Assembly: GCA_014799395.1 (NCBI GenBank)
Contig: JAAVID010000014.1
Location: 1-43,759, forward strand
Direction of reading: 5' to 3'
DNA length: 43,759 bases
Origin: Oscillospiraceae bacterium
GTDB lineage: Bacteria; Bacillota; Clostridia; Oscillospirales; Ruminococcaceae
This document shows positions 27,847-33,328 of this stretch, piece by piece; within the stretch, counting starts at the first letter, position 1; each line of letters opens with the position of its first letter. The notes under the pieces were generated by a model. The model did no database searches and had not been told where the DNA came from. It saw only the letters and a program-made list of their open reading frames with translations. The position numbers and the translations under genes were made by a program.

Positions 27847-27853
27847 ATAACGG

Positions 27854-27877
27854 TGCGCCCTTAGTTTTAAGGGCGCA
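27854..27877 (+). terminator. Terminator-like hairpin after gpmI
   Basis: TGCGCCCTTA pairs with a complementary arm ending GGGCGCA, with a short T-rich loop. The 24-nt hairpin is identical to the one at 28349-28372, but only ATTAGTTTG follows instead of a T-run, so it may be a weaker terminator. Confidence 0.65.
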
Positions 27878-27940
27878 TTAGTTTGTATAAAAAGTATTTT
27901 TTACCGACAGAGACAGTCTGAATAGGGCTGAAAAAACCCC

Positions 27941-27969
27941 TTGACATTTTGCCTTGATTGTGATAAAAT
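27941..27969 (+). promoter_or_regulatory. Promoter of the coiled-coil repeat gene
   Basis: TTGACA (27941-27946) and TAAAAT (27964-27969) are 17 nt apart, 34 nt before the start codon. Confidence 0.8.
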
Positions 27970-28003
27970 AAAAATATATCATATAGAAAGGACACTTTTA
28001 CTT

Positions 28004-28294
28004 ATGCTGACGAAAGAAGATCTGCAAGCTCTGTCGGAGATGATGGACAGCAAGATCGATCCTATCAATAAAAGGCTCGATAAAATGGACGAACGTCTCG
28101 ATAAAATGGACGAACGTCTTGACAAAATGGACGAACGTCTCGACGCGATGCAGGAAGATATTGAAATTGTGAAAGAGGATCTGCAAGAGGTAAGAAGCAC
28201 TGCAAACGCTTTAAGCGAATGGGCTGAAACGCTTACCGAATATCACTTCCCCGATTTACACTATCCGCTTCACGAAGATGAAAAAATTTCATAA
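28004..28294 (+). CDS. Small coiled-coil protein with tandem heptads
   Basis: This 96-residue protein is almost entirely predicted coiled coil (residues about 8-70). Its centre holds the heptad KMDERLD repeated three times from a 21-bp DNA repeat, then MQEDIEIVKEDLQEV. A short non-helical tail (YHFPDLHYPLHEDEK) follows. Similar small heptad-repeat proteins are common in Clostridia without a known role. The ATG at 28004 has AAAGGA upstream; an upstream extension of the frame overlaps the promoter. It is a single-gene unit between its own promoter and a terminator. Confidence 0.75.
   Translation: MLTKEDLQALSEMMDSKIDPINKRLDKMDERLDKMDERLDKMDERLDAMQEDIEIVKEDLQEVRSTANALSEWAETLTEYHFPDLHYPLHEDEKIS
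28076..28144 (+). repeat. 21-bp tandem repeat coding for heptads
   Basis: Units at 28076-28096 and 28097-28117 are identical; the unit at 28118-28138 differs at two bases, both silent. A fourth, diverged unit begins at 28139. Each unit encodes one coiled-coil heptad. Confidence 0.9.
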
Positions 28295-28348
28295 ATTAAA
28301 TAAAGAGGTTTGAAAAGACCTGTCGGAAAATACTTTTATATAAACCGC

Positions 28349-28377
28349 TGCGCCCTTAGTTTTAAGGGCGCATTTTT
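28349..28377 (+). terminator. Rho-independent terminator after the coiled-coil gene
   Basis: A 24-nt hairpin (28349-28372), identical to that at 27854-27877, is followed directly by six T residues. Confidence 0.85.
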
Positions 28378-28471: not shown

Positions 28472-28500
28472 TTGACACAAGCGTTTTTTTTAGGTATAAT
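28472..28500 (+). promoter_or_regulatory. Promoter of the EssC/FtsK-like gene
   Basis: TTGACA (28472-28477) and TATAAT (28495-28500) with 17-nt spacing match the sigma-A consensus exactly. The leader to the start at 28571 is about 65 nt. Confidence 0.85.
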
Positions 28501-28570: not shown

Positions 28571-31500
28571 ATGGCAGATTTAGTAAACGAAATGCTTGGT
28601 AAGTTTATGGCGCTCATGCGCGAGGAGAAAGAGATCTCCGCGGAAATGGACGCCGCTTTCAAGGAATACAACGATTATTGCAGCTCCTCCGACGAGGACC
28701 TCAACGAGAAGATCGGCGAGATACGCGAGAAAATGCATAAGCTCGATTACCTCCTCGATTACGCTAAGGAACACGCTCAGCCCGACGAGCTCGAGGAAGC
28801 CCCGGCTCCTTTTGAGACTTCCGCGGGTCAGCTCGAGAGTATCCGCCAGACCATAAAGCTCGAGTCCCGCAACGACCCCAACGCCGAGACCCTGTACACC
28901 AAGGTCACGGGTCAGATGAAGTTCTACGAGCAGAAGATCGAACAGACCAAACAGCTCATCGAGGGAAGCAAGGTGCAGGCTAAGCGCCAGTACGACAGCG
29001 ACGTAGCCACGCTCACCGAGCGCAAGACCCAACACGGCGAAAAGGTCAAGGCTTACATACAATCCGACGATTTCAAGGAATATCTCAAGCTCCTTGTGTT
29101 TGATAAGTCCGCGTTCAACAGTCCCGCGACGGTCGAGCTGCCGTCAAAGGAGCTTATCAGTCTGGGTCAGCGCCGCGTTAAGCTGTCCGTGCCCATGGAG
29201 GTCGAAACGGAGCTTTCCACGCTCTCCAACGGCGAGTACAACGCCGCCGCGCGTACTATCGGCGCGCCTTATCAGATCCCCGTAAACAAGGGAAGCGTGC
29301 TGTTTCTCGATTATGACGAGCGCAATCAGACTTATCTTATGGGCGGCGTTCAGCGCCTGCTCCTCAATCTTATAAAGTATATCGGGCAGGATATTACCAA
29401 TGTGGTCTTTTGTGACCCCGTTACGTTCACGGCGGACGGTCTCGGTCATATCGCGGCGCTCGGCAAGGGCGCAAACCCGTTTATCACCGTTCCGACTTCG
29501 CTTTCCGACGCGGCTGCCAAGCTCGGCGAGTTCGCCGAGGCGGCGCAGTCGTCGCCCACGCCGGATAAGATCTCACGCGTGCTCGTGCTCAACGGCTTCC
29601 CCGAGAATTATATGGACGATATGCTGAATAAGGCGCTTGCCGTTTGCAGAACAGCAAAGCAGAACGGCGTGCTTGTCGTGCTTACTCATAACGCTTCGGT
29701 TGAGGAAACTCCCGTTGAAAGGGAAGTCCGCACGCTCGCGGCGTCCATTCGCAGCAGAAACGGCGGCTTCTGGATAGAGGACGTGCGCGAGAGCCTGTTC
29801 TGGTATTCCGCGCCCTCCGACCTTCCGGAGGATATTCGCCGCGTTTATATCGACCAGCGCCGCCAGGCGGCTCACGCTTCCGAGCCCGCCGAAAAGATCG
29901 AGCCTGTTTTCGGCTCTTCCGCGCCCAAAGCGCCCGCAGCACCCGCGGCACCGGTAAAGCCCGCGGCTCCCGAGCCCGTTGAAAAGATCGCGCCTATTTT
30001 CGGTTCTTCCGCGCCAAAAGCGCCCGCTCCCGCTGCTCCCGCAAAGCCCGTCAAGCCCGTTGAGGAGTTTGAGCCGATCTTCAGCTCTTCCGTTCCCAAA
30101 AAGCCCGAAGAGCCCAAGGCAGAACCCGTTCATATACCCGAGCATAATTCGGAAATGCCGGAAACGCCTGCTCAGCAACAGGCTGCACCCGCGCCTCAAC
30201 AGGCAGCGCCTGCGCCGGCACCGCGGCCCGCGGCTCAGCCCGTTCAGAGACCCGCGGCGGACGGCAGACCCCGCAAGGGAAGCCGCAAGCTCCCCGAGAT
30301 AAAAATAGGTATGAGCGTGGACGGCAGTCCGATAAATATGGACGCGGGCGGAAATATCGTCTTTATCTGCGGCAAGAGCGGCGGCGACAGACAAATGCTC
30401 ACCGACAGGCTTATCACGCAGATAATCGAGCGCTCTCACCCCGACGACGCGGAGCTGTGGCTTTGCGACTGCGGCGGCGGAGAATTGATGAAGTATTCGG
30501 ATAAGCCCGCGGCGCATATTCGTTACGCGGTGTCCGATTTTGACGGCGAGACGGCGTTCGACTTTATCGAGGTCATTTCCGCCGAGTTTGAAAAGCGCGT
30601 CGTGGCGCTCAACAAAAACGGCTGGGAGGACTATGCCGCCGTTCCCGAAAACGTGTATATGCCGAGAGTGTTCGTCGTTATCAACGAGTTCTCGAGACTG
30701 CTTGAGATACTGAGCGGCGCTCCGAGATATTTCGGCAGAAGCTTTACCGCAAAGCTCGCGAATATTTTCAGAAGATGCGCGGACTGCGGAATTCATTTCG
30801 TGCTGACCTCCGAGGCGTTCCTCGACAACGGAAAGCGCCCCGAGTGCTTTGAGAACGTCTCCGTACACTGCGCGGCTGCCGTATCGGGCTGCGACAGCGG
30901 CGTCCGCGAGATGTTCGGTCAGGTCAAGCTGTATGAAAATGAGATCGAGTCGCTCAAAAAAGTTCCCGAGGGCTGCGCGTTCACCGCGTCCGAGGGCAAT
31001 GACGACGGGCTTGTGATGGTTCGTCTGCTTGTCGCGCAGGCTTCTCTTGACAACAGATTTATCGCCGTTACCGAGTACAGAACGGGCTACGACGAATATG
31101 TAAACAAGCACCCGATACTCGCAAACAGAAAGCTCCGCGCGGCACAGCGCGACCACGCGGCGGCGCAGGGCGAGATGATCGCGGCAAAGGGCGCGGACGA
31201 GACGCTGCTGTTCCTCGGCGAGCCGTGCCGTTTCAGAGCGGAATACCCGATACGTCTGTACGAGGAGTTCGGCGAGAACCTGCTGACGGTCGCTCCCGAG
31301 CGCGAAAAGACGGGCGCGGCGCTCGCGGTCAAGGCGGCGATACAGTCTCTCGCGGCGCAGAACGTCGCTGTCGAGGTGCTCACCTGGCGCGGAGACCCCG
31401 TGTACGCGGAGCTTATGAGCAATAACGCTTTGAACGGCGTGAACGTGCTTTCGGGCGACGAGGCTGTTGCGCGCGTCAAGGAGCTGTCGGCGGATATTGC

Positions 31501-31825
31501 GGCGGGCAAGCGCTTGGCTTCGTTTGAGATAGTGCTCGGCGGAGATCATCTGATAGCCGCTCTTCACGCGGAGGACGGTCTCGCCGATATGAAGCGCGCG
31601 CTGGTAAAGGGCTCGCGGCTCGGAACGCATTTTATGTTCGTTTCGGGAAGCGCGGCTCAGCTTTCGGCGGGCTTCATCTCGCTGTTCAGACACAGGATAG
31701 TGTTCCCGTGCCCGTTCGCCGAGGCGGAGAAGATACTCCGCGACCCGGGCTGCGAGCTCCCCGGGAACGCGTTCAGACTGTCGGACGATTATGACGAGCT
31801 TACGCTTGTCGCTTATTCGGTTTGA
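28571..31825 (+). CDS. EssC/FtsK-like protein with three degenerate ATPase modules
   Basis: This 1084-residue protein starts with a coiled-coil region (about 1-170). Module 1 (about 235-430) has a Walker B-like strand VLVLNGFP. A Pro/Ala-rich linker follows (about 435-570) with three repeats of the form EKIxPIFGSSAPKAP. Module 2 (about 575-830) follows the FtsK/SpoIIIE pattern, but Walker A reads GKSGGDRQ (601-608; Lys-Ser lost) and Walker B reads VVINEF (Asp to Asn). Module 3 (about 880-1084) is similar and also lacks a P-loop. Three tandem modules recall EccC/EssC of type VII secretion, but no WXG100 or other secretion gene is nearby and no membrane helix is evident. ATPase activity seems lost. 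Confidence 0.7.
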   Translation: MADLVNEMLGKFMALMREEKEISAEMDAAFKEYNDYCSSSDEDLNEKIGEIREKMHKLDYLLDYAKEHAQPDELEEAPAPFETSAGQLESIRQTIKLESRNDPNAETLYTKVTGQMKFYEQKIEQTKQLIEGSKVQAKRQYDSDVATLTERKTQHGEKVKAYIQSDDFKEYLKLLVFDKSAFNSPATVELPSKELISLGQRRVKLSVPMEVETELSTLSNGEYNAAARTIGAPYQIPVNKGSVLFLDYDERNQTYLMGGVQRLLLNLIKYIGQDITNVVFCDPVTFTADGLGHIAALGKGANPFITVPTSLSDAAAKLGEFAEAAQSSPTPDKISRVLVLNGFPENYMDDMLNKALAVCRTAKQNGVLVVLTHNASVEETPVEREVRTLAASIRSRNGGFWIEDVRESLFWYSAPSDLPEDIRRVYIDQRRQAAHASEPAEKIEPVFGSSAPKAPAAPAAPVKPAAPEPVEKIAPIFGSSAPKAPAPAAPAKPVKPVEEFEPIFSSSVPKKPEEPKAEPVHIPEHNSEMPETPAQQQAAPAPQQAAPAPAPRPAAQPVQRPAADGRPRKGSRKLPEIKIGMSVDGSPINMDAGGNIVFICGKSGGDRQMLTDRLITQIIERSHPDDAELWLCDCGGGELMKYSDKPAAHIRYAVSDFDGETAFDFIEVISAEFEKRVVALNKNGWEDYAAVPENVYMPRVFVVINEFSRLLEILSGAPRYFGRSFTAKLANIFRRCADCGIHFVLTSEAFLDNGKRPECFENVSVHCAAAVSGCDSGVREMFGQVKLYENEIESLKKVPEGCAFTASEGNDDGLVMVRLLVAQASLDNRFIAVTEYRTGYDEYVNKHPILANRKLRAAQRDHAAAQGEMIAAKGADETLLFLGEPCRFRAEYPIRLYEEFGENLLTVAPEREKTGAALAVKAAIQSLAAQNVAVEVLTWRGDPVYAELMSNNALNGVNVLSGDEAVARVKELSADIAAGKRLASFEIVLGGDHLIAALHAEDGLADMKRALVKGSRLGTHFMFVSGSAAQLSAGFISLFRHRIVFPCPFAEAEKILRDPGCELPGNAFRLSDDYDELTLVAYSV

Positions 31826-31835
31826 GAGGTCGGCT

Positions 31836-32186
31836 ATGGGAATGATCGATGAATTGAAGGCGCTCGGAGCGGATACCGACGACGCTCTCACAAGGTTTAT
31901 GGGCAATACGGAGCTGTTCGAGCGTATGCTCAAAAAGCTCCCCAAGGTCGTTGAGGAAGCGCCCGTTATGCCGTATCTTAAGTCGGGCGATCCCGATATG
32001 GCAATGACAAACGCGCATACCTTAAAGGGCGTTATCGGAAATCTCTCGCTCACGCCGCTGTACAACGGCTACGCCGAGGTGGTTGACCTTCTGCGCGACG
32101 AAAAGCCCGAAAAAGCCGCCGCGCAGTTTGAAAAAACGCTCTCGCTCCAGAATGATATTCTGGAATGTATAAAAAAGTATATGTAA
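31836..32186 (+). CDS. Hpt (histidine phosphotransfer) domain protein
   Basis: This is a 116-residue four-helix Hpt protein. The phosphorylatable residue is His61 in AHTLKGVIGNLSL, matching the AHxLKGxxxNLG signature. Such proteins pass phosphate between a histidine kinase and response regulators. The ATG at 31836 follows GAGAGGTCGG; a second ATG lies two codons on. It is 10 nt after the EssC/FtsK-like gene and 92 nt before a response regulator, so phosphotransfer between the two is likely. No histidine kinase gene is in the window. Confidence 0.85.
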   Translation: MGMIDELKALGADTDDALTRFMGNTELFERMLKKLPKVVEEAPVMPYLKSGDPDMAMTNAHTLKGVIGNLSLTPLYNGYAEVVDLLRDEKPEKAAAQFEKTLSLQNDILECIKKYM

Positions 32187-32200
32187 CGATTTTCATTAAA

Positions 32201-32230
32201 TGGGGGTTGGGGGCGGCGCCCCCACATCCC
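32201..32230. repeat. Minimal GC-rich hairpin of the cassette family
   Basis: TGGGGGC (32208-32214) pairs with GCCCCCA (32218-32224), followed by CATCCCC. This matches the second hairpin of the element at 23057-23073. It lies between the Hpt and response-regulator genes and could lower read-through. Confidence 0.55.
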
Positions 32231-32278
32231 CGTTATCTTTAATTGAAAATCGGTATAAAAAGTGAAAGGTGTTTTCCA

Positions 32279-33328
32279 TTGAAGAACTCAATTTTAATAG
32301 TTGACGACCAGGAGATCAACCGCGTTTTGCTTGCGGAGCTTTTTAAGGACGAATACAACATAATAGAAGCGGAAAACGGGCAGGAAGCGCTTGACATAAT
32401 AAACGAGGACGACAGCATAATCGCCGTTATGCTCGACCTGATAATGCCCGTAATGGACGGAATGAGCGTGCTTTCGGAGCTTAACAGAACGGGAAAGATA
32501 TACAATATCCCCGTGTTTATAATCACAGCCGCGGATAATATGCAGATGCTTACGGGCGCGTATAATCTCGGCGCGGTGGATATAATCTCCAAGCCGTTCC
32601 GTATGTGCTTTATCAAGGCGAGGATAAGCAATATCGTGGAGCTTTACCGCCATAGAAACGAGCTTGTCGATATAGTCGACGAGAGCGTGGAGAAGATGTC
32701 GAAAATAAACGACAAAATGGTGGAAACGCTCGCGACGCTTATCGAGTTCCGCGACTGCGAGTCGGGCGAACATGTCAAGCGCATAAAAAATATCACCATA
32801 AAGCTGATGACCAAGGTAAGCGAGATGTTCCGCGAGTATCGGCTGGATAAGTCGACTATCGCGAAGATAGGCACGGCTTCCATACTTCACGACGTGGGAA
32901 AGATCGCGATACCCGACAATATACTGAAAAAGCCCGGACGGCTCACTCCCGAAGAGTTTGAGATAATGAAGATACACACCGTCAAGGGCTGCGATATTCT
33001 GGCGCAAATGCCCGAGGATATTATGGATCACGAGGTGTATCGGTTCAGCTACGATATTTGCCGTCATCATCACGAGCGCTGGGACGGGCGCGGTTATCCC
33101 GACGGGCTGAAGGGCGACGAGGTCTCGATATGGGCGCAGGTAGCCGCGGTCGCCGACGTTTTCGACGCGCTTACCTCGCCGAGAGTGTACAAGGCTTCGT
33201 TCAACGTGGAAACGGCGGTGAAAATGATAAACAACGGCGAGTGCGGACAGTTCAACCCCAAAGTCCTCGAAGCATTCAACAGCATAGTAGACGACTTAGT
33301 AAAGAAACACAGTGAAGAAGAGGAGTAG
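32279..33328 (+). CDS. Response regulator with HD-GYP output domain
   Basis: A receiver domain (residues 1-120) shows the acidic pair D9/D10, phospho-acceptor Asp53 in MLDLIMP and Lys105 in SKPF. The output domain is an HD-GYP phosphodiesterase (about 150-340). His204-Asp205 lie in SILHDVGKIAIPD, and HHERWDGRGYPDGL follows, all intact. HD-GYP enzymes hydrolyse c-di-GMP, so an active, phosphorylation-controlled phosphodiesterase is expected. I use the TTG at 32279 with GAAAGGTG upstream (349 residues); a TTG at 32243 is in frame but lacks an SD and precedes the usual receiver start. Confidence 0.9.
   Translation: MKNSILIVDDQEINRVLLAELFKDEYNIIEAENGQEALDIINEDDSIIAVMLDLIMPVMDGMSVLSELNRTGKIYNIPVFIITAADNMQMLTGAYNLGAVDIISKPFRMCFIKARISNIVELYRHRNELVDIVDESVEKMSKINDKMVETLATLIEFRDCESGEHVKRIKNITIKLMTKVSEMFREYRLDKSTIAKIGTASILHDVGKIAIPDNILKKPGRLTPEEFEIMKIHTVKGCDILAQMPEDIMDHEVYRFSYDICRHHHERWDGRGYPDGLKGDEVSIWAQVAAVADVFDALTSPRVYKASFNVETAVKMINNGECGQFNPKVLEAFNSIVDDLVKKHSEEEE

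Follow-up and report, generated by a model that had tools for sequence, protein, structure and literature searches.

What can a protein of the FtsK/EssC type do when none of its ATPase modules keeps its catalytic motifs? The question is raised by a gene in contig JAAVID010000014.1 of an Oscillospiraceae bacterium (assembly GCA_014799395.1), a stretch of 43,759 nucleotides (nt) that was analysed at its full length and is called the window here. A first-pass annotation had described a 1,084-residue FtsK/EssC-like protein with three dead modules, tied to Hpt and HD-GYP genes, and had proposed a signalling scaffold that controls cyclic di-GMP (c-di-GMP). The open reading frame (ORF) and the profile matches agree on such a protein at 28571-31825. 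Our answer, which we hold with moderate confidence, is that it is a genus-specific soluble pseudo-ATPase, most likely a non-hydrolysing scaffold, which Hpt/HD-GYP neighbours have joined in one clade. The parts of the gene are as follows (aa, amino acids).

28571..31825, plus strand: FtsK/EssC-like pseudo-ATPase gene (ORF, ATG start, 1,084 aa)
28571..29062, plus strand: N-terminal coiled coil, aa 1-164 (predicted structure, helices 2-68 and 103-163, pLDDT block means 49-89)
29051..29305, plus strand: strongly conserved region, aa 161-245 (FNS, GQRR and most of the TIGAP region invariant in 22 rows)
29306..29899, plus strand: module 1, aa 246-443, P-loop not in place (collinear with soluble FtsK-like proteins by a weak match, E 0.0017)
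29900..30277, plus strand: Pro/Ala-rich linker, aa 444-569 (variable in length, relaxed, omega 0.13-0.51)
30278..31060, plus strand: module 2, FtsK-type domain by profile matches, Walker A and B lost, aa 570-830
30371..30394, plus strand: Walker A remnant GKSGGDRQ, aa 601-608 (sequence, alignment)
30677..30691, plus strand: Walker B remnant VINEF, Asn for Asp, aa 703-707 (sequence, alignment)
31061..31822, plus strand: module 3, aa 831-1084, P-loop not in place, probably RecA-like

By its profile matches, module 2 is an FtsK-type P-loop fold. It is found by the Pfam model FtsK_SpoIIIE (E 4e-4, 20.3 bits, under the cut-off of 24) and by the EssC model TIGR03928 (E 4.7e-9, 34.4 bits, under the curated cut-off of 778.4). 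The three-module plan described earlier is borne out by profile for this module, while for modules 1 and 3 it rests on weak profile matches and on low-confidence models, the structure prediction having used a three-row alignment. Module 3 probably has the FtsK-type, RecA-like fold. Profile comparison of the modules with one another, as a test for internal repeats, gave no match (best E 0.0015). Against solved structures, a profile of residues 1-443 finds at best designed helical proteins (E 0.2), residues 161-245 find no match, and a single-sequence phmmer search with the whole protein finds nothing up to E 1; a fold search with the predicted N-terminal model returns assorted long helices. The usual 19-residue hydropathy threshold for a membrane segment is 1.6, and the highest value in the protein is 1.44 (on one simple scale), so that it has no clear membrane segment.

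The loss of the ATPase motifs is shared across the orthologous family. In the window protein, GKSGGDRQ (residues 601-608) is, as had been described, a P-loop that has lost Lys-Ser, and INEF (within residues 703-707) has Asn for Asp. The module-2 motifs are readable in 31 of the 33 orthologues (all but G222 and G218), and the same losses recur there: none of the 31 has a full Walker A, none has a Walker B in which Asp and Glu are both present, and every orthologue that was read thus lacks intact motifs. At position 7 of the old P-loop, 27 copies have Arg and four have Lys; the last Gly is kept in two, Ser/Thr in nine, and Lys together with Ser/Thr in three. Modules 1 and 3 have no P-loop in place in the full-length rows compared. 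The Asn of LNGFP in module 1, which had been taken for a further Walker B change, is not fixed, since among relatives the position also holds D, C, H, R, G, L and other residues. One count weighs against so clean a picture, namely that the pattern [AG]xxxxGK[ST] occurs somewhere in 5 of 23 full-length rows; it lies after the module-2 Walker B (L059, L065) or within module 3 (L063, L064, L067), and on an alignment reading by eye none is at the P-loop place.

Orthologues are present in 33 of the 43 genomes of the genus (34 genomes match, but G201 was removed, because there the match is to an EssC-size frame of 1,538 aa that shares a contig with its WXG100 genes). For wider comparisons we used samples of the order, family and phylum. 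With the profile of residues 1-443, three of the 394 order genomes match, each of them a member of the genus, and one of the 398 phylum genomes, which is the window genome. The full protein finds three full-length relatives in 197 genomes of the family, again all from the genus, with weak matches only in 19 others. A contig scan with the window protein alone matched two loci. A viral origin was rejected after one scan of viral contigs with one profile of the family gave no relative; PHROGs matches above chance fall on the FtsK part (best E 9.6e-10).

Nei-Gojobori omega values for seven pairs are 0.016-0.254 in every domain (0.07-0.20 in module 2) and 0.13-0.51 in the linker, with some synonymous divergences (dS) above 1. 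The low omega in all domains marks purifying selection, and therefore modules that are kept despite their lost motifs, as in a maintained pseudo-ATPase. The N-terminal part is the most constant, with a mean column identity of 71% versus 57% for modules 2 and 3 (alignments and tree used 22 of 23 rows, one of L057 and L003 being left out because these are copies of one contig). A sequencing error or a pseudogene was rejected as the source of the losses because the 31 readable copies share them and selection is purifying.

The tie to the genes downstream can be judged from the following features.

28472..28500, plus strand: sigma-70-type promoter-like site, TTGACA-17-TATAAT, 12/12, before the FtsK-like gene (consensus scan only)
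31836..32186, plus strand: Hpt protein, 116 aa, AHTLKG (Pfam match and motif)
32279..33328, plus strand: receiver and HD-GYP protein, 349 aa from TTG 32279, a chosen start, the ORF opening at 32243 (Pfam domains and motifs)

The perfect promoter-like site stands behind a terminator-like hairpin (28349-28372), so that the FtsK-like gene probably begins its own transcript, and GGAG is found upstream of its ATG. Its stop codon (31823-31825) is separated by 10 nt from the Hpt ATG at 31836, and the three genes may well be co-transcribed. Pfam finds the Hpt protein weakly (E 0.0021, 18.7 bits, under the cut-off of 24.6), and the His of AHTLKG is intact; the next protein has a receiver (78 bits) and an HD_5 domain (104 bits) with the motifs HDVGK and HHERWDGRGYP. 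The pair thus carries the motifs expected of it, and the first-pass description of both genes, including the 10-nt gap, was accurate.

Would the FtsK-like protein then sense something and relay it via Hpt to the HD-GYP protein, so that c-di-GMP is lowered? We regard this as unlikely. The gene order that suggests it is not restricted to the window genome: Hpt is the next gene downstream, in the same orientation, in 16 of the 33 orthologue-bearing genomes (G000, G197, G198, G199, G208, G211, G220, G222, G223, G224, G227, G229, G230, G232, G233 and G236), with HD-GYP next in 16 of 16. Moreover, 25 of the 33 genomes that carry the FtsK-like gene also have a close Hpt (E under 1e-25), versus 1 of the 10 that lack the gene, although shared descent alone could give the same difference. 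However, Hpt is not adjacent in 15 of the 33 (G094, G180, G205, G206, G207, G210, G213, G219, G221, G225, G226, G228, G231, G234 and G235; contig ends leave G212 and G218 undecidable), and eight of the 33 have no close Hpt. In six genomes (G205, G206, G207, G226, G228 and G231) Hpt is on a different contig, where a protein built of two receiver-HD-GYP units stands next to it; in G221 the separate Hpt adjoins an HD-GYP gene cut by the contig end, and in G219 no HD-GYP match lies beside it within the 9 kb read. The window genome itself has a second Hpt/HD-GYP pair, on contig C72 beside a GH94 gene and apart from the FtsK-like gene. On the tree, which covers 22 of the 33 orthologues, one change suffices to account for adjacency (support 96/94). 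The tie is therefore real in one clade, absent in another and not a constant partnership; as a general rule it fails, and control of c-di-GMP by the FtsK-like protein is at best a clade-level addition. The two-unit proteins measure 710-719 aa (L084 2443-4596, L085 2406-4550, L087 2169-4328, L088 2432-4585, L089 4893-7031 and L090 1172-3304).

Two other roles were considered. In one, the modules bind a nucleotide without hydrolysing it, the conserved Arg at the place of the Walker Lys holding the phosphate. The presence of Arg or Lys at position 7 in all 31 copies and the purifying selection on module 2 speak for such a sensor, but 29 of the 31 have lost the last P-loop Gly and 22 no longer have Ser/Thr. 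PMC11154593 reports that the EccC5 DUF, whose remnant GEREQVL likewise has neither Gly nor Ser/Thr, showed no ATP binding and that a helix occupies the position of the loop; a sensor of this kind seems to us unlikely. In the other, the neighbours MurC, M20 peptidase and VanY indicate the function, and the protein is a cytosolic scaffold of peptidoglycan precursor synthesis. Of 22 loci, 18 have MurC and M20 within 9 kb of the FtsK-like gene and 14 have VanY, among genomes with and without Hpt adjacency alike, and MurC and M20 are commoner neighbours than Hpt/HD-GYP. However, genomes differ in whether these genes lie on the strand of the FtsK-like gene or on the opposite one, so that there is no fixed operon, and none of the three is found in the stretch read of the window genome, G219, G231 or G223 (the contig or stretch being short for G219 and G223). 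We consider a cell-wall role very unlikely.

The scaffold that no longer hydrolyses ATP is the explanation that we prefer. The coiled coil and the P-loop-fold modules would form an oligomer, for whose assembly the FtsK fold would have been kept while the use of ATP was lost. A protein partner would be bound by the stretch of highest conservation, which comprises the coiled coil and residues 161-270. The Hpt and HD-GYP proteins of one clade may use or tune this scaffold, but its core role would not depend on them. A bolder version, in which the ATP-free oligomer is itself a signalling scaffold on which Hpt and HD-GYP assemble in one clade, so that c-di-GMP is now set by what was once a motor, strikes us as quite improbable. 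The family would offer a clean natural case of what an FtsK fold does without ATP.

On the upstream side, the window genome has genes for PGK, TPI and iPGM instead of MurC, M20 peptidase and VanY. Two near-identical terminator-like hairpins, at 27852-27879 and at 28349-28372, flank a small coiled-coil gene (ORF 27941-28294) with a promoter-like site of its own at 27941. Together with its hairpins (27852-28372) it looks like an inserted cassette, and it has no match near the FtsK-like gene at any of the 21 other loci compared.

Among the relatives compared, sequence places soluble coiled-coil FtsK-like ATPases nearer to the window protein than EssC, which refines the EssC/EccC likeness noted at first pass. 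Four such three-module proteins from the order (L107, L149, L150 and L155) have, like the window protein, a long N-terminal part before the modules, and their modules 2 and 3 are collinear with those of the window protein, module 1 weakly so. Three of the four have no strong hydrophobic segment. They possess a single P-loop, in the middle module, where GKST or GKTT is retained, unlike in the window protein; modules 1 and 3 have none, as in the window protein. Since these nearer relatives have one P-loop, in the middle module only, the all-dead state is probably derived. The ancestor would have been a soluble three-module FtsK/EssC-like protein with a helical N-terminal part and a P-loop in the middle module only, and this last active site, in module 2, would then have been lost as well. 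The two annotated loci of this group contain protein kinase and PP2C genes, neither of which is among the neighbours annotated at the window locus: at L107 (70-11777) these accompany FHA and Cdc48-type AAA genes, and at L149 (3776-14436) vWA and transglutaminase genes. The L107 FtsK-like protein matches PADLOC mad8 and its kinase mad6; in the same defence check the window protein matches mad8 only, at E 9e-4 versus 3.5e-16 for L107.

The FtsK/SpoIIIE translocases share the FtsK-type fold with module 2, and probably with module 3, but the window protein has neither Walker motifs nor a clear membrane part. The only other PF01580 match in the window genome is a separate FtsK-size gene on contig C50. 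With EssC/EccC the best correspondence of module 2 is to the second ATPase of EssC (TIGR03928 positions 806-999), but the window protein has no FHA match, no clear membrane segment (two EssC-like relatives reach a hydropathy of 1.74) and no intact module. WXG100 has no match in the window genome and exceeds the cut-off in 5 of the 43 genus genomes. A part in type VII secretion, which the first-pass annotation had also dismissed, was rejected on the absence of WXG100 and of a clear membrane segment and on the EssC score. Within the genus, an EssC-size frame shares its contig with several WXG100 matches only in G201 (L172, contig C55), and this genome lacks the dead FtsK-like orthologue.

A limited literature search (titles and abstract openings) found no description of an all-dead FtsK/EssC-like family. 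PMC11154593 describes the DUF, D2 and D3 of EccC as degenerate and thought to be structural or regulatory, a possible precedent by analogy for a scaffold role; the GEREQVL remnant mentioned above appears to resemble the [DE]R remnant common in the FtsK-like family. According to PMC9436818, D2 of EssC is needed for assembly, though its Walker motifs matter there. A weak profile match is poor ground for naming such genes type VII secretion ATPases. Degenerate modules are already known within working EccC/EssC machines (PMC11154593); in the present family, by contrast, the motifs are gone from every module of the orthologues read, yet selection persists.
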